Source: a virus. From it: a DNA stretch of 54,941 nucleotides. Numbering within the stretch: the stretch's first letter is position 1; each line of letters begins with the position of its first letter. Positions 2,590 to 20,640 of this stretch are shown here, piece after piece. Below the pieces are notes generated by a model, which saw only the letters and a list, made by a program, of their open reading frames with translations, did not search any database and was not told where the DNA came from. The position numbers were made by a program, and so were the translations under genes. Where the stretch lies: the IMG/VR virus record IMGVR_UViG_3300010403_000008, positions 1 through 54,941 of that record. One strand, given 5' to 3'.

Positions 2590-3260
2590 ATTGCCTGTGG
2601 AATCTTCGGTCTGTATGAGGGCATCCCTGCCAAATCGCACCAGTGCGCCATGTTCATCCGGTCCAGCACCCGATGATCGTACTTGGCTGCAATCATGGGC
2701 TTGTCCAGATTGGTCGTAATGAACAGCCACTTCCCCTGACACATATCCAGTACCCTGCACAACCGTGAAGTCGTTTCCCCCTGCTTGAACCGATCCACTT
2801 CAGCCCCCACATCATCCAGGAATACGATGTGAGCAGTTTTCAGGTCAGTGATTGCATCCTCGAATTCAGCGTTCTTGTCGTGCGAAGAGATGCTTGCCCA
2901 CGCCCCCCGCCACACCGCAGGCACAGTTCCACCCCATCCCCCTAAAGATGCGTCTACGGCCATGCAGGAGAGCGCACGGGCCAGCCTGCGGGAGACGGTG
3001 GATTTGCCTGTGCCAACAGGGCCACTGACAACCAGCCAAGTTCCAGACTTGCGGGTATTGTTCATGGCATTGTGGTAGAACCATGCCCCCCACATGGTCA
3101 GACGATAAACAAGTGGATGATGGCTTTCATCTAGCCTGAAAAGCTTTGTCCGCACTGCTGAATGTACAGTTAATATCTTTGGCTGACATGTCCCAAAACC
3201 AGATTGGGTCTTTACACCCACCACGCTTTGCAATGCTTTGGTGATTTGGGCTGCGTTCAT
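2586..3260 (-). CDS. AAA+ ATPase, DnaC/IstB-type helicase loader candidate
   Basis: The 224-residue protein has a Walker A motif GPVGTGKS at 80-87, a Walker B IVFLDD at 145-150, a sensor-1 TTN at 182-184 and an arginine-finger-like DHRVLDRM at 195-202. This order and size match DnaC-like helicase loaders and the related IstB and Cdc6-type ATPases. In a phage early operon the likely role is to load a host or phage helicase at the origin. The gene is joined on both sides by ATGA overlaps. No phage helicase was recognised, which fits loading of the host enzyme. Confidence 0.8.
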   Translation of the reverse strand: MNAAQITKALQSVVGVKTQSGFGTCQPKILTVHSAVRTKLFRLDESHHPLVYRLTMWGAWFYHNAMNNTRKSGTWLVVSGPVGTGKSTVSRRLARALSCMAVDASLGGWGGTVPAVWRGAWASISSHDKNAEFEDAITDLKTAHIVFLDDVGAEVDRFKQGETTSRLCRVLDMCQGKWLFITTNLDKPMIAAKYDHRVLDRMNMAHWCDLAGMPSYRPKIPQAI

Positions 3261-3502
3261 TGAAGATTGAATTCAGCGGGCCGGGCGCTACTCCGACTGT
3301 GGCTACGTGCGGGACGGTCGTATCGTGCCGCGCTTGCATTGCGCGTTCCGGCATCGAGCCGGACAGCTTGTTCCACCAGGATTAACATTCGGTGGGCCTT
3401 GTTACCGCGTTCCAGTGCCAATCCCTGGACGCCGCTGCATACCTTGGCACGTCTAGATGCGTGTCTGCTTTCCACGCCGCCGCTGAAATTGTTCAAATTC
3501 AC
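3257..3502 (-). CDS. Small basic hypothetical protein (81 aa), GTG start
   Basis: It starts at GTG 3502-3500 in a GTGA overlap with the HTH gene and ends in an ATGA overlap with the ATPase. The coupling on both sides is the main evidence that it is translated. The product is Arg and Ala rich (RASRRAKVCSGVQGLALERG, then RSHSRSSARPAEF near the end) and may be partly disordered. No family is recognised. It could be a replication accessory protein because of its position directly before the loader ATPase. Confidence 0.5.
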   Translation of the reverse strand: MNLNNFSGGVESRHASRRAKVCSGVQGLALERGNKAHRMLILVEQAVRLDAGTRNASAARYDRPARSHSRSSARPAEFNLQ

Positions 3503-3756
3503 GATGGTTCAACCCGTTCTCCATTCTGCACATGCCTGCACGGATGCCCACCCCTGCGACCGGGAAGGGGCACCCCACGCTCCCGCAGCCCGTGCTTCAG
3601 AAGCTTACGCTTGAGGGTGGACACGGACAGCTTCAGTTCGCGGGACACAAGAACCAAGTTGTTCTCGTGCTTGCCCATCAATTCCTTGAGGGTTTCGCAC
3701 TCAACAACCTCAAGCTTGTTGTACTGAAGACCGTTACCGCAGGCGGCACAAATCAT
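3499..3756 (-). CDS. Fis-type helix-turn-helix protein with N-terminal CxxC (85 aa)
   Basis: The N-terminus MICAACGNG carries a CxxC. The centre (residues about 30-57, NLVLVSRELKLSVSTLKRKLLKHGL) fits the Fis-family helix-turn-helix found at the end of NtrC activators. The tail is basic and Gly/Pro rich. It is the first well-formed gene after the palindromic promoter at 3900-3933, so it is a good candidate for an early transcription regulator. Start at ATG 3756 overlaps the stop of the 38-aa gene as ATGA. Confidence 0.7.
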   Translation of the reverse strand: MICAACGNGLQYNKLEVVECETLKELMGKHENNLVLVSRELKLSVSTLKRKLLKHGLRERGVPLPGRRGGHPCRHVQNGERVEPS

Positions 3757-14802: not shown

Positions 14803-16092
14803 ATGCCCGAATCCGCTACCGCCTCACCCCCACCCCCTGCCCCCGACTTCACCCCCCTGCCTGTCCAGCAAGACTCCAGCAGTGGTTCTGCCCCACCGAT
14901 TGTGCCGTCAGCATCCCCTCGTGAGATTGATGTTGGAAAAGCTTCAGGCGGGGCCAAGCAGGACAAGACGGGTTCGGGGATGGATGATTCGATGAGTGAT
15001 TTGGACAGGCTGTTTGCGGAGACGGAGGCAAAGCCGGAAAAGCCCGCTGGTAACGCGAAGGATGAGAAGAAGCAGTCTGACCAGTCTGGGGACGAAAAGC
15101 CTGCTGGTGAGGCAGCAGACGCCAAGGAAGAGGGGTCTGGTGAGAAGTCTGGGGAGGACAAGACTGGGAACGGAAAGGCTGTCAGTGCCCCTGAATTGAG
15201 GAAGGCGTACGAGGCCCTGAAGAAAGAGGCTGCTGAACTGAGGGAGAAAGTGAAGTCCCGTGGTCCATCCGAGGATCAGGTGAAGGAATTGCAGACGTTT
15301 AAGGAACAGTACGAATCTGAGTACAAGCGTAGGCAGGAATTGGAAAAGGAATTGGCACAGAGCGCGTACGAACGATCCCCAGAATTCAATGAGAAGCACG
15401 CTGGCCCGTTCCGTAATGCGTACCAGAACGCTCGTAATCGCATTGCACAGTTCAAGGTGACTGACAGTGAAGGGGCAACCAGACAGGCGAGTCCTGATGA
15501 TTTTGATGCGATCATGCAGATTGGGGATGATATGCAGGCAGCAACGGCTGCACGGGAACTGTTCGGGGATACGGTGGGACCGATTGTGATGATGCAGCGG
15601 GAGAAGGTGCAGGAATTGCATGGGTCAATGCAGAAAGCGATTGCAGATGCAGAAACCAACTTCACCAAACACCAGCAGGAACAGAAGGTGATGTCAGAGC
15701 GCAAGCAGGCGCATTTGAACAAGCTGTGGACGACGCTAAATACGGGTGCAGCCGAGAAGTACCCCCAACTGTTCAAGCCTGTGGATGGGGACGAAAAGGG
15801 CAATGAATTGCTTCAGAGAGGATTTGAGCTTGTAGATAAAGTGTTCATGGATGGGAGCCAAATGGACCCTGAAGAGACGATTAAACTGCACAGTCAAGTG
15901 CGCAACAGGGCAGCAGCGTTTGGGAGACTGGTGTACCAGAACCGTACGATGAGTGAGAAGATTGCTGCACTGGAGAAGGAGTTGAACGCCTTTAAGGATA
16001 GTGCCCCGAAGAATGGGGATGGGAGAGCGGGGAAGAAGGGGGAGGGGGAATTGTTTGGGGAGGATGCATTGGAGAAGTATGTTGATCGGTAG
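14803..16092 (+). CDS. Scaffold-like head assembly protein (429 aa)
   Basis: I choose ATG 14803 (MPESATASPPPPAPDF) over a TTG four codons earlier. The first 130 residues are Pro/Ser/Asp/Lys rich and likely disordered. From about 130 to 400 the protein is highly charged and helical with coiled-coil stretches (AYEALKKEAAELREKVK, KRRQELEKELAQ, TMSEKIAALEKELNAF). This composition and the place between portal and capsid fit a scaffolding protein that shapes the procapsid and is then lost. It may carry other roles. Confidence 0.66.
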   Translation: MPESATASPPPPAPDFTPLPVQQDSSSGSAPPIVPSASPREIDVGKASGGAKQDKTGSGMDDSMSDLDRLFAETEAKPEKPAGNAKDEKKQSDQSGDEKPAGEAADAKEEGSGEKSGEDKTGNGKAVSAPELRKAYEALKKEAAELREKVKSRGPSEDQVKELQTFKEQYESEYKRRQELEKELAQSAYERSPEFNEKHAGPFRNAYQNARNRIAQFKVTDSEGATRQASPDDFDAIMQIGDDMQAATAARELFGDTVGPIVMMQREKVQELHGSMQKAIADAETNFTKHQQEQKVMSERKQAHLNKLWTTLNTGAAEKYPQLFKPVDGDEKGNELLQRGFELVDKVFMDGSQMDPEETIKLHSQVRNRAAAFGRLVYQNRTMSEKIAALEKELNAFKDSAPKNGDGRAGKKGEGELFGEDALEKYVDR

Positions 16093-16096
16093 GTTG

Positions 16097-16501
16097 TTAC
16101 GATTTGCTGTCATCGTTATGGCGATTCATTACGGCAAATGAGTCTTCCATATCGTTCGTGATTGAATCAAGTTCGCTGAACCATTGAATTAGGTCACGAT
16201 TCCATACCCATTGCTCCCCCTTAAGGTCTCCAGTCACGAGTCTGGCTCGTCCGTTAATGTCTCCGCTGACTTCATTTACAATCCAACAACAGAAGCGTCT
16301 TGATGGAAGACTTCTGCCCTTAAGCACACTGGGATTGAAATAGAAATCACCAGAATTGCTCTTTTTAATAATGGCTGCTATTTCTTCAGGTGTTTTGTTC
16401 CAAAGCTTCTTCTCATCTTCAAAGAAGTTGGATAGCATTTTCAATTTCTTTTGTGCATGTATAAGGCTTCGTTTTACGTCTTTTGATTTATGGGTTTTCA
16501 T
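16097..16501 (-). CDS. Hypothetical protein of the inserted leftward cassette (134 aa)
   Basis: Starts at ATG 16501 inside the last 14 bases of the upstream zinc-protein gene. The N-terminal third is very Lys rich and helical (KDVKRSLIHAQKKLKMLSNF). The rest (NGRARLVTGDLKGEQWVWNR, LIQWFSELDSITNDMEDSF) has no recognised family. It converges with the scaffold gene, leaving 4 bases between stops. Confidence 0.58.
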   Translation of the reverse strand: MKTHKSKDVKRSLIHAQKKLKMLSNFFEDEKKLWNKTPEEIAAIIKKSNSGDFYFNPSVLKGRSLPSRRFCCWIVNEVSGDINGRARLVTGDLKGEQWVWNRDLIQWFSELDSITNDMEDSFAVMNRHNDDSKS

Positions 16502-17165
16502 TGGTTGTAAAATTTCGTGCGATCAGATCAAACCGTTCCCTTCCCTCCCGATTGCCAATTAGCTGCCATCCCCTCCATGTCATTCGATGTCCATTGACTA
16601 TACTAACAAGACCATAAGTAGCGGCACATGAAATTGAGCTTTTGTATTTCTTTCCGGGTCTCCAGTTCAGGGTTTCTGGCGGAAACAGGTCAGGATTCAT
16701 GTGAACGAATCTGGTGATGTTTTTCACATAATGAATAACCCCACTGGGGTCTCTTAAAAAGCATTCTCTGGCCCTGATGTGATTTGGACTATAGCGTTTA
16801 GATTGTGGTGTGTTTCTAATCTTTCCAAGATGCAGTTCTCTTGTGCGAATCCTATTCTTTTCAGACTGAACAGCGGCCAGCCATTTCGATTCATCCCTGA
16901 ACAAGATTGGGCTGTGTCCTTTTTCCCGTTGTTGTATCCCGTGATACAGATAGGCACATTCTCTTGAGCAAGAGATATTACTTCTTGTCTTCCATGTGGT
17001 TTGGAATGTTTTACCGCATTGTACGCATACCTTTTCCTTGTCGTTTATTCGGATGGAGTTTCCGGCACACTGGGTTGAGCAATACTTTCTCCACGAATGA
17101 TTTGGTTTCTCAAGCCATTCCTTTCCGCATTTCTTACAGGTTAATGTGATACGTTTTGGTCTCAT
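16488..17165 (-). CDS. Zinc-finger / NUMOD-like DNA-binding protein, homing-element relic candidate (225 aa)
   Basis: I place the start at ATG 17165 (MRPKRITL); the frame is open to an ATG at 17252. Two zinc units of the C-x2-C...C-x3-C kind follow (LTCKKCGKEWLEKPNHSWRK then YCSTQC; VCVQCGKTFQTTW then SCSREC). The C-terminal half (FLRDPSGVIHYVKNITRFVH, then a GL and HRMTWRGWQLIG) matches the helix-turn-helix modules found with phage homing endonucleases. No GIY-YIG, HNH or Vsr catalytic part is visible. It may be a DNA-binding remnant or a regulator. Confidence 0.6.
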   Translation of the reverse strand: MRPKRITLTCKKCGKEWLEKPNHSWRKYCSTQCAGNSIRINDKEKVCVQCGKTFQTTWKTRSNISCSRECAYLYHGIQQREKGHSPILFRDESKWLAAVQSEKNRIRTRELHLGKIRNTPQSKRYSPNHIRARECFLRDPSGVIHYVKNITRFVHMNPDLFPPETLNWRPGKKYKSSISCAATYGLVSIVNGHRMTWRGWQLIGNREGRERFDLIARNFTTNENP

Positions 17166-17233
17166 AATGAGAACCTGCATAATGTGGGATGTATGCGGGC
17201 ACGCATTTGGGGTTTGAGGAGATGGAGGGTCAT
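17162..17233 (-). CDS. Possible 23-residue linking peptide
   Basis: An ATG at 17233-17231 overlaps the stop of the 174-aa gene as ATGA, and its own TGA overlaps the ATG at 17165 as ATGA. The peptide is MTLHLLKPQMRARIHPTLCR and three further residues. It is so short that chance cannot be excluded. Its value may be to carry ribosomes from one gene to the next. Confidence 0.25.
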   Translation of the reverse strand: MTLHLLKPQMRARIHPTLCRFSL

Positions 17234-17754
17234 GTGCTGGTTCCGTTTTCAATCTGTCTCAGTCCAGACTTGATCGACTCTTCTGCCGTCAGCCTGCGTT
17301 TAGCTGCCTCCGTAGCTGCTTCTAACGTATTGAGTGATCGTTTAGATGTTGCCATCGCAATCACTCCATGACTGCTGAACTGAGCGTGGAATTTGATTCG
17401 TTCTTCGTTCGTCATTTTATCCGGGTCTGCATCCTTGACCAACATTCTTCGGATGGTTCGTCTTGAGAGCCTGTGAATTCGTCTGGTTGCATCTGCTCCA
17501 ACCATGTGAAATTCACCAGCCTTCAGCCTGCGAATTCCTTGACCCCGCACATGGGCGAAATACTTCCCCGTCTCACGCTGAACGATTAGGATTGCACGAG
17601 ACAGAATCCATGCGTGTTTCTTGAACAATTCACGTCCCGGTGTCAGTGCCTGCAATTCAGCCCTTGTGATCAATTCGTGATGCTCAATCTTGTTTAGGTA
17701 TCGAGCGATGGTCACGGAATCAATGTTGGCCTGATGTGGGATTGCTGACTGCAT
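17230..17754 (-). CDS. Conserved phage protein, helical, possible nucleic-acid binding (174 aa)
   Basis: ATG 17754 lies right after the long pentamer array on this strand. The protein reads VTIARYLNKIEHHELITRAE, then ALTPGR, ILSRAILIVQRETGKYFAHV followed by GQGIRRLKAGEF, and a basic RRIHRLSRRTIRRML. This order recalls a phage family with a winged-helix-like N-part and Arg-rich middle whose function is not known. It may work with the RAMP-like protein encoded upstream, as both are in the same cassette and share the arrays. Confidence 0.62.
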   Translation of the reverse strand: MQSAIPHQANIDSVTIARYLNKIEHHELITRAELQALTPGRELFKKHAWILSRAILIVQRETGKYFAHVRGQGIRRLKAGEFHMVGADATRRIHRLSRRTIRRMLVKDADPDKMTNEERIKFHAQFSSHGVIAMATSKRSLNTLEAATEAAKRRLTAEESIKSGLRQIENGTST

Positions 17755-18230
17755 AAAATAGAGTGGTGTGTGGTGATTTGACTTGGGGTTATGTGCAGTG
17801 CGGTAGCTTGACGTGATCTGATTTGCGGTGCTGTGGGTTACTGTGTATTGGATTGCCGTGGCGTGAAGTGGCGTGCGTTTGATTGAGTTAGTGTGGCTTG
17901 CAGTGTTTTGGTGTGACGTGGAGAGAAATTGGCCCCTAAAGATGGTGTGTTGTGTCGTGCGTTGTTGTGACTTGATTTAGGGTGCAGTGGAATGCTGTGG
18001 GTTGCAGTGTAATGTTGTGACTTATCGTGCTGTGGTTTTGAGTGGAGTGGCGTGACTTGGGATGTAGTGTGGAGAAATTAAACAGCACGCAATGGGGGAT
18101 GGTGTGGAGTGTTGTGAGTTGGCGTGTCTTGTGTTGGCACGAATTGCGGTGTCGTGTTTTGATTTAGCGTGCAGTGTTTTGAAGTGTTGTGTGTTGCGGT
18201 GCCTTGTTGTGTCCTGATGTGTTTTGGTGA
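17755..18230. repeat. Pentanucleotide-periodic array, three blocks (NNKTG units)
   Basis: The whole gap between two minus-strand genes is built of five-base units with T, nearly always TG, at a fixed place: 32 units at 17761-17920, 26 at 17941-18070 and 26 at 18096-18225. Of these 84 units 83 have the fixed T and 74 have TG; the base before T is mostly G or T, and the other two bases vary. Two short spacers (17921-17940 and 18071-18095) both contain GGAGA followed by AAATT and shift the phase. On the transcribed minus strand the pattern is CAMNN. No open frame spans it. Confidence 0.9.
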
Positions 18231-18791
18231 TTAAATTCGTTCTAACTTGGACACTTCAAATCGACCATTAGTTCCGCCCTTCTCAGCACGGAACTGGCCC
18301 AACCCAATGAACATCCCCGCATGGTCCAAATGCTCCCGTAAAATCTTCTCGTCAATCGCATCATCCAGAACGGCGATTGTAACGGTGGTCTTCCATGAAG
18401 TCAGGGTTGGGATGCAGCGAGCAACCCGCTTTCCTGAGCCTCGTATCCCGTCTGAGTTGGCGTTGATCCAGATTGGCTTGGCATCAGCACGAGTCATCCC
18501 AAGGTCCGCATCGTCCATCACGAGTAGGCCGCTCTCGAACAGCTTCGTATAGGTTCGTTTACCCTTACCCGGAACCTGTCTGCCAAGATGCTTGGCTGCT
18601 GCACAGATGCAGAACTTCAGAGCCATAGCTGGAATGATGCACCTACCAGCCTCGTTTACGCGAAGCTTTTCGAGGTAGCAGCGAACTTCAAAATCTTCGT
18701 GGGTTTCGCGGTCTGCGCGTTTGGACGTGAATGGAGCGCCTCCCCCTAACGGGGTGACGGATTGTAAGGTTACTCGGAATTTGTTTAACAT
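18231..18791 (-). CDS. RAMP-like phage protein between two pentamer arrays (186 aa)
   Basis: The order is a first strand FRVTLQSVTPL, then GRCIIPAMALKFCICAAAKH in the middle, KPIWIN, a basic region with IPTLTSWKTTVTIAVLDDAI, a helix EHLDHAGMFIGLGQFRAEKG and a last strand GRFEVSKLERI. The glycine-rich GxGxFR followed by a GRF strand is reminiscent of RAMP/Cas7-type RNA-binding folds and of a widespread phage family of unknown function. That is an inference from pattern only. Both ends touch the five-base arrays: the ATG lies at the edge of one, the stop at the edge of the other. Confidence 0.65.
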   Translation of the reverse strand: MLNKFRVTLQSVTPLGGGAPFTSKRADRETHEDFEVRCYLEKLRVNEAGRCIIPAMALKFCICAAAKHLGRQVPGKGKRTYTKLFESGLLVMDDADLGMTRADAKPIWINANSDGIRGSGKRVARCIPTLTSWKTTVTIAVLDDAIDEKILREHLDHAGMFIGLGQFRAEKGGTNGRFEVSKLERI

Positions 18792-18910
18792 GATGGAGTG
18801 ATGTGGTGTGTTTTGGTGTGCCGTGTCTTGATGTGTCGTGTGGTGTCTTGAATTGCAGTGAAGTGAGGTAGGTTGGTTTGCTGTGCAATGGTTTGTGTTG
18901 TCGTGTCGTT
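18791..18910. repeat. Second pentanucleotide-periodic array (24 NNKTG units)
   Basis: Twenty-four consecutive five-base units in a single phase, all with T at position 4 and 22 with TG at positions 4-5. It begins at the ATG of the RAMP-like gene and therefore forms its 5' leader on the minus strand as CAMNN repeats. Its composition is G and T rich on the plus strand, like the longer array downstream of the gene. Confidence 0.88.
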
Positions 18911-18914
18911 TCGG

Positions 18915-19043
18915 GTCCGGTTAGACCGGACAAAAAGTCCGCTCAGGTGAAAGACCAGATCGAATGGGGCTGGTCCGGTTTCCCGGAACTGAGCGGACCG
19001 AAAGTCCAAAGTGTCAGTCTTGCGCCATTCGACCGGCTTTCAC
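18915..19043. other. Multi-stem structured element between array and capsid promoter
   Basis: A perfect hairpin (GTCCGGT, loop TAG, ACCGGAC; 18915-18931) is followed by a 10-bp outer stem GTCCGCTCAG (18937-18946) with CTGAGCGGAC (18989-18998). Inside it lie GACCAG/CTGGTC (18953-18958, 18970-18975) and CCGG/CCGG (18975-18986), giving a three-way-junction layout. The inner loop TCGAATGG (18960-18967) can also pair with CCATTCGA (19025-19032), and GTGAAAG (18947-18953) with CTTTCAC (19037-19043). It may be a structured RNA, an origin or a protein-binding site. There is no T-run for a terminator. Confidence 0.6.
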
Positions 19044-19103
19044 ACCAGTCACGGACGAGCGGACAATCCACCACTACCAGATGTTTGTCAAATTGAAATC
19101 CGT

Positions 19104-19308: not shown

Positions 19309-20640
19309 ATGGCTAGTACACTTTCCTGTGGGGCATTTACTCAGTACCTCGTCGATCAGCTACCTGTTTATGATAAGTTGATTTTGGAGGACATTCGTCC
19401 GATGGACGGTTGGATCGGACATGTTAAGACGGGTACGTTCGAGGCGTACTCGGGCACAGAGCATACTCTGGACCGTTTCAATCACGTGTACCCGGATACA
19501 ACCAAGGCTTGGTCCCGAACTCAGGCCAGTAATTGCATCGGAACTCCTTGTGACAAAACGGAATACTGCATTGGGTGGGGTGCGACAAGAATCACTTATT
19601 TTTTGGAAGAGCAAAGTTGGGCGACGCCATTACTTTGTTTCGATCAGGAAATGCACATCACAAAAGCAAGAGAAAATTTCCGATATATTATCGGAGGAAT
19701 TCTCAAGCCCGCCACTTCGACCATCATGTCGAACTTCCTGCGTCGTCGTGCCCTCACGATTGGCACGGGCAAGAAGTGGGTGGCCAATGCCACAATGTCT
19801 GATTTCGTGCCCACCTGGGTCACTGTAGGCGGTTCTGAACTGTATCTGGACGTGACTGTGGAACCCACTTCCCGGCTCACTCCACAAATGCTTCAGCGTC
19901 GTGTGTCCCCACTCATGCTGATGGGCTATTTCGGGAAGAACCCGTTCGGGGACCGCAAATCCATTCCTTTGATCGAACTGGTCACTGGCATGGAAACTCT
20001 GTGGGACTTGGACAAGCAGGTCTGCGACAGCAACATCTCTGGCGCATGGCGGTTCACAGAATGGACGGCAGCCAACGAGTACTGGCGGTACGGCTTCAAC
20101 GGGCAGTTGGGCAACTACGCAACCCGTGCAGACCCAATGGAGATGCGGTTCAACCGTGTTGGTCCCGTGGCTGGTGGCAAGATTCGTTTCCAGTTCATCC
20201 AGCCCTACGTGAACGTCGCATCCAGTGGGGCTGGTGGTGCCCCCGGTCTCAAGTCGATTGAGAATGAAGACTGGCAGAATGCTCGTTACTCCATCAGCTT
20301 CATCTGGCACAAGATGGCGATGGAAGCACTGGTCGCAGACGCAACCCCGGTCAATCCCGAAATGCCATTCTCGTCCCGTAACTTCGGTGGACGCTGGCAG
20401 TTCGTGAAGGACAACCTGGGTGCGTGTGAGGACGGGACAGTCATTGAGAACAAGCGCGGGAACAAGGGTCAGTTCATCAGCGACTTCAAGCTGTCGATCA
20501 GACCCATGTACACCGAATTCGCGGAAGCGATCTTCCACATGCGCAATCGGGCCTGCATCACGATCTGCCCTCCGTGTGGCACTGATCCTGGGTATCCGAC
20601 TCAGAGCTACAACAGTTGCAATCCTGACTGCACACCGTAA
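19309..20640 (+). CDS. Major capsid protein (443 aa)
   Basis: This is a single-copy gene with its own promoter and long leader, placed after portal and scaffold as expected for the capsid subunit. The sequence is balanced in alpha and beta with many aromatic residues (WRFTEWTAANEYWRYGFNG, YSISFIWHKMAMEALV) and ends in a Cys-rich tail (ICPPCGTDPGYPTQSYNSC). Length 443 fits an HK97-type capsid protein of a podovirus-like phage. No diagnostic motif exists, so the call is by position, size and codon bias toward C- and G-ending codons, unlike its neighbours. Confidence 0.75.
   Translation: MASTLSCGAFTQYLVDQLPVYDKLILEDIRPMDGWIGHVKTGTFEAYSGTEHTLDRFNHVYPDTTKAWSRTQASNCIGTPCDKTEYCIGWGATRITYFLEEQSWATPLLCFDQEMHITKARENFRYIIGGILKPATSTIMSNFLRRRALTIGTGKKWVANATMSDFVPTWVTVGGSELYLDVTVEPTSRLTPQMLQRRVSPLMLMGYFGKNPFGDRKSIPLIELVTGMETLWDLDKQVCDSNISGAWRFTEWTAANEYWRYGFNGQLGNYATRADPMEMRFNRVGPVAGGKIRFQFIQPYVNVASSGAGGAPGLKSIENEDWQNARYSISFIWHKMAMEALVADATPVNPEMPFSSRNFGGRWQFVKDNLGACEDGTVIENKRGNKGQFISDFKLSIRPMYTEFAEAIFHMRNRACITICPPCGTDPGYPTQSYNSCNPDCTP

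Follow-up and report, generated by a model that had tools for sequence, protein, structure and literature searches.

The 54,941-nucleotide stretch of viral DNA analysed here (the whole of IMG/VR record IMGVR_UViG_3300010403_000008, hereafter the window) contains a locus that is, with a probability of about 0.93, a phage-borne VIPR system, in which guide arrays and a small RAMP protein would read target DNA by a code that skips one base and, helped by an accessory protein, repress a gene of a rival phage. VIPR (Viral Interference Programmable Repeat) has been described in SUSP1 and, as type II, in P. fulva (bioRxiv 2026.04.26.720920, PMC13142463), and combines a small RAMP protein encoded by the phage with accessory vap genes and with guide RNAs built from GGY/NN pentanucleotides (PMC13142463). 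The NN pairs of these guides recognise double-stranded DNA and pass over one base of the target, usually the wobble base, and rival phages and satellites are repressed; published vrRNAs show 9-16 repeats and a structured 3' tail (PMC13142463). The window locus shows two genes and four arrays, all on the minus strand:

18794..18909, minus strand: array B1, predicted vrRNA upstream of vipr, 22-23 CAMNN units
18231..18791, minus strand: vipr gene, 186 aa, predicted RAMP/Cas7-fold protein, phrog_4652 (AlphaFold, Foldseek and family profile)
18096..18229, minus strand: array B2, directly 3' of the vipr stop codon, 26 CAMNN units
17943..18072, minus strand: array B3, 26 CAMNN units
17759..17923, minus strand: array B4, reaching the start of the candidate vap gene, 32 CAMNN units
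17230..17754, minus strand: candidate vap gene, 174 aa, winged-helix-like DNA-binding fold (family context, structure matches and hhalign)

The arrays contain 106 five-base units on the minus strand, grouped in four blocks, and each unit, read on the gene strand, is CAM followed by NN. Unit position 2 shows a fixed A (T on the plus strand) in 105 of the 106 units, positions 1-2 show CA (TG on the plus strand) in 95, position 3 is A or C in 97, and positions 4-5 are free. The initial annotation, made from the sequence alone, had counted 108 units, 107 with the fixed base and 96 with the dinucleotide, which is essentially right. It had also placed the block ends at start and stop codons, and the blocks do adjoin both genes at their start codons, and 18231-18791 also at its stop codon. 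Identity at lag 5 is 0.476 in 17755-18230, against 0.309 +/- 0.021 in 2,000 dinucleotide-preserving shuffles (z 7.8), and 0.614 in 18792-18910, against 0.337 +/- 0.045 (z 6.1), so that shuffles of the same composition do not give the periodicity; no comparable five-base periodicity was found elsewhere in the window. As first proposed, the array is neither a microsatellite nor a CRISPR; it shows no constant repeat, and no other cas-like gene was found in the locus. Rfam gave no known RNA and no hammerhead at the locus, and the predicted folding of the array RNAs is no better than that of shuffles; nor could a structured 3' tail be recognised in them. Each of the window's long blocks may be one long guide or a tandem of several. 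Two other contigs, L071 (3712-4062) and L083 (6876-7181 and 5970-6279), carry arrays of 60-70 CAC/NN units without a break, far above reported vrRNA lengths.

Two short spacers separate B2 from B3 and B3 from B4. The initial annotation had described them as GGAGA...AAATT; they are real, and are copies of an element conserved 5' of the arrays in relatives. On the gene strand, both read AATTTCTC(T)C:

18071..18079, minus strand: AATTTCTCC, copy right at the 5' end of array B3, kept in front of arrays in relatives as well
17920..17930, minus strand: AATTTCTCTCC, copy right at the 5' end of array B4, likewise kept in front of arrays in relatives

TTTYY lies within 20 nt 5' of the array in 36 of 58 blocks, with a background of 6%, and in L066, L076 and L087 the TTTYYC element splits the arrays into blocks of 10-16 units. 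The element precedes the first block after a gene and is absent from the gap that separates the final block from the following start codon, and because of this placement it is read as a putative leader or processing site. The same features bear on another reading, in which the arrays are unstructured CA-rich leaders that only aid translation or transcript stability of both genes. Blocks ending at start codons and array RNA predicted to be nearly unstructured would suit such leaders; however, arrays also follow genes, the conserved element divides the arrays of relatives into repeated blocks, and the decodable target held by the arrays (see below) argues strongly against this reading, which is left with a negligible probability.

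The 186-aa protein is, by profile and structure prediction, a single-domain RAMP homolog of the Vipr family. Its AlphaFold model (pLDDT 90) shows Csm3/Cas7 of type III and VII CRISPR effectors as the best Foldseek matches (E about 1e-7). A profile of 26 family members matches 36pp_D, the solved structure of the SUSP1 Vipr protein, with E 7e-30, and a profile restricted to the CAC clade matches it with E 3.8e-6. Alignment of the family by hhalign to the Felixounavirus and LESphi2 homologs reaches 96-98%, and all 26 members match a single PHROG, phrog_4652.

An IMG/VR scan for eleven in-phase CA dinucleotides gave at least 80 loci, and among the matches listed about 30 diverse viral loci, the window and sister loci included, show long arrays of non-identical units. 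In a similar scan of cellular genomes, none of the 80 loci fetched passed the unit-diversity filter. Relatives of the 186-aa gene nearly always adjoin the arrays in the viral contigs among the matches listed, iterated profile searches place them in most array contigs, and a search of whole records found one in 18 of 25 array contigs. No relative was found at E 0.01 in the other seven records: L021, L056, L100, L103, L115, L119 and G022. G022 contains a relative of the 174-aa gene; the other six are candidates for fragments, for a divergent Vipr or for orphan arrays. The association of the arrays with the 186-aa gene family, suggested earlier for this locus, is thus seen in many viruses, and relatives that carry the genes do have arrays. 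Named phages with a family member show five-base arrays on the vipr strand in all seven loci examined: GGY/NN arrays in two Felixounavirus loci, LESphi2, Trine and LittleE, and GCA/NN arrays in phiHSIC and Vibrio phage 1.266.O. The triplet of the window's clade is CAC (CAM in the window) and other clades show GCA or ACA, each followed by NN, which suggests that triplet and Vipr protein co-vary across the CAC, GCA, ACA and GGY clades. In L006, L093 and L110 the ACA/NN-type arrays and the vipr-family gene lie on opposite strands, in contrast to the remaining loci checked. The VIPR preprint, which distinguishes seven types, also mentions 'a related consensus' (fig. S17, PMC13142463), and the CAC/NN motif may already be recorded in its supplement.

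The free positions 4-5 of each unit were decoded by reading them against candidate targets at skips of 0-4 bases. The clearest match comes from a sister contig, L002 (locus at 2917-3558), whose Vipr is 92% identical to that of the window. The upstream array of L002 contains 12 guide units, which match a third phage, L257/L267, in its 443-aa gene (L257 4286-4321) at 24 of 24 positions with a skip of one, and the skipped base is the wobble base. Other skips give 14-16 matches to L257/L267, and the maximum in 3,000 unit shuffles against L267 is 20. Three further terminal units show no match (24/30 for all 15 units) and look like a terminal element. The same array matches its own 443-aa gene at 20 of 24 positions and that of the window at 22 of 24, the four mismatches to its own gene are all matches in the rival L257/L267, and no perfect site was found in the window or in the L002 contig. 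Array B1 of the window also shows a match, in an overlapping stretch of the same gene and in a different register:

19606..19674, plus strand: imperfect match of B1 inside the phage's own 443-aa gene (19309-20640), 34/46, skip at the wobble base

In 1,500 shuffles, the B1 score shows a mean of 25.6, an SD of 1.0 and a maximum of 31, and the match is seen only with the NN positions and only at skip 1. Since B1 scores 29-34 on homologs of the 443-aa gene, with no perfect target among those compared, its exact target is probably another relative outside the collection. A pool scan of 59 arrays over 4 Mb, which left out loci fetched by target patterns and counted homologous target genes separately, found 12 guide-target pairs of at least 18/20 at skip 1, against 3, 6 and 5 pairs at skips 0, 2 and 3, respectively, and the only 20/20 pair is at skip 1. 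These sequence matches indicate that the NN pairs recognise their target with a skip of one nucleotide. Exact 8-9-unit scans of IMG/VR with B1-B4 gave only chance matches, none extending past the seed, and did not find targets of B2, B3 or B4. The B2 guide, read as codons, resembled a Cro/CI helix-turn-helix, a candidate dropped when Pfam and tblastn gave it no support.

The initial annotation had taken the arrays for a scaffold bound by one protein subunit per unit. One unit per subunit is plausible given the RAMP/Cas7 fold, but the informative NN pair was missed, and the locus is, as far as the matches tell, a programmable recognition system rather than a mere scaffold, in which the NN pairs spell the target with a one-base skip. 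A code-free version, in which the RAMP protein uses the arrays as an RNA or DNA scaffold (in packaging, condensation or autoregulation) and the variable positions drift, accounts for the regular five-base units, the conserved triplet and the RNA-binding fold; drift, however, is not expected to make two independent arrays spell one gene region at skip 1, one of them at 24/24 in a rival, and this reading is strongly disfavoured and very improbable. Self-regulation, in which the upstream array tunes the phage's own adjacent 443-aa gene rather than attacking rivals, draws on the matches of B1 (34/46) and of the sister array (20/24), each to its own adjacent gene. It is unlikely, though less so than the scaffold, because the sister array is perfect for the copy of another phage and imperfect for its own, every mismatch to its own gene being a match in the rival, and B1 matches other homologs no worse than its own gene.

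The 443-aa gene is encoded divergently next to the vipr locus and is conserved in related phages L257-L264 (58-98% identical). It shows no match of note in phage records, PHROG or PDB, and is possibly a structural gene. The genome of rival phage L267 follows the window colinearly, with 75-92% DNA identity over long stretches, but contains neither vipr nor arrays, and other small genes occupy its counterpart of window 16091-18929; VIPR thus sits in an accessory slot beside the targeted gene. A long, very stable stem-loop on the minus strand of the window (18912-19050; -61.8 kcal/mol, z -4.5), whose sequence is kept in L002 and in the VIPR-less L267, marks the edge of this slot. A conserved stretch of about 52 bases after gene ends in the slot (window 17182-17233; L267 13714-13763 and 13987-14037) may mark cassette boundaries. 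Between the window and its sister the genes align while the NN content of the arrays, in the best register, is at or barely above chance, so that the guides turn over and the pattern persists. The fuller reading of these loci is a VIPR type coded by CAC, which differs in constant triplet, array length and leader element from the types studied by experiment. Its guides would be fully replaced between phages with 92% identical Vipr, and two independent ones would still converge on one stretch of the same gene in sister phages, one of the two being perfect for a rival and mismatched to itself; taken as a whole, we consider its chances evenly balanced.

The 174-aa protein looks like a winged-helix-like accessory protein, although the statistics are weak: the structural model shows winged-helix matches with weak E values and probabilities of up to 0.9. 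Its family adjoins vipr in CAC-type loci, with relatives in at least 10 contigs, and the neighbour of vipr in Mycobacterium phage LittleE is related to it by hhalign (96%). An HNH endonuclease-like gene on the minus strand of the window (16488-17252) overlaps the end of the accessory gene and is absent from this place in L002.

In the VIPR mechanism proposed for the window, the four arrays would be transcribed from the minus strand into vrRNAs of CAM/NN pentanucleotides, and copies of the 186-aa RAMP protein would bind along this RNA, probably one per pentamer. Vipr would keep the constant triplet away from pairing and present each NN pair, and the NN pairs would read double-stranded DNA, leaving out one base of the target from pair to pair, in coding targets the wobble base. 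The complex would repress its target gene in a related phage that is a competitor, aided by the 174-aa DNA-binding accessory protein. Transcription, RNP assembly and repression we infer from the preprint on other VIPR types. The CAM triplet, the long blocks, the lack of a recognised 3' tail, the failure of the scans to find targets of B2-B4 and the lack of a perfect one for B1 weigh against this reading.

The gapped, RNA-guided code that a single preprint described a few months ago is supported here by sequence alone, and its range is extended from GGY to another constant triplet, CAC. The locus and its sister give a natural phage-versus-phage case, in which a guide matches a sister phage in full but shows mismatches to the genome that encodes it. 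If triplet and Vipr co-vary, the recognition code between protein and RNA could be put to the test, as could guide acquisition. The findings on CAC-type VIPR bear on the origin of CRISPR RAMPs.

Among known systems, the TRAP protein with its (G/U)AG-repeat RNA shares one short repeat per subunit at a spacing of about 5 nt; its fold is unrelated and a target code is absent. The RAMPs of Class 1 CRISPR-Cas (Csm3/Cas7) share the fold and the logic of a guide-binding backbone, whereas the window locus shows no repeats and spacers, and its pairing is gapped in 5-nt RNA steps. Published VIPR is the closest system: both are phage-borne, with one small RAMP protein of a homologous family whose gene is flanked by pentanucleotide arrays with a hypervariable NN, a small DNA-binding-like accessory gene, a one-nucleotide-skip code on the wobble base and a rival mobile element as target. 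The window differs from it in several features: the triplet is CAM and not GGY, the blocks contain 22-32 units and not 9-16 repeats, a TTTYYC element precedes the arrays, and a structured 3' tail was not recognised.
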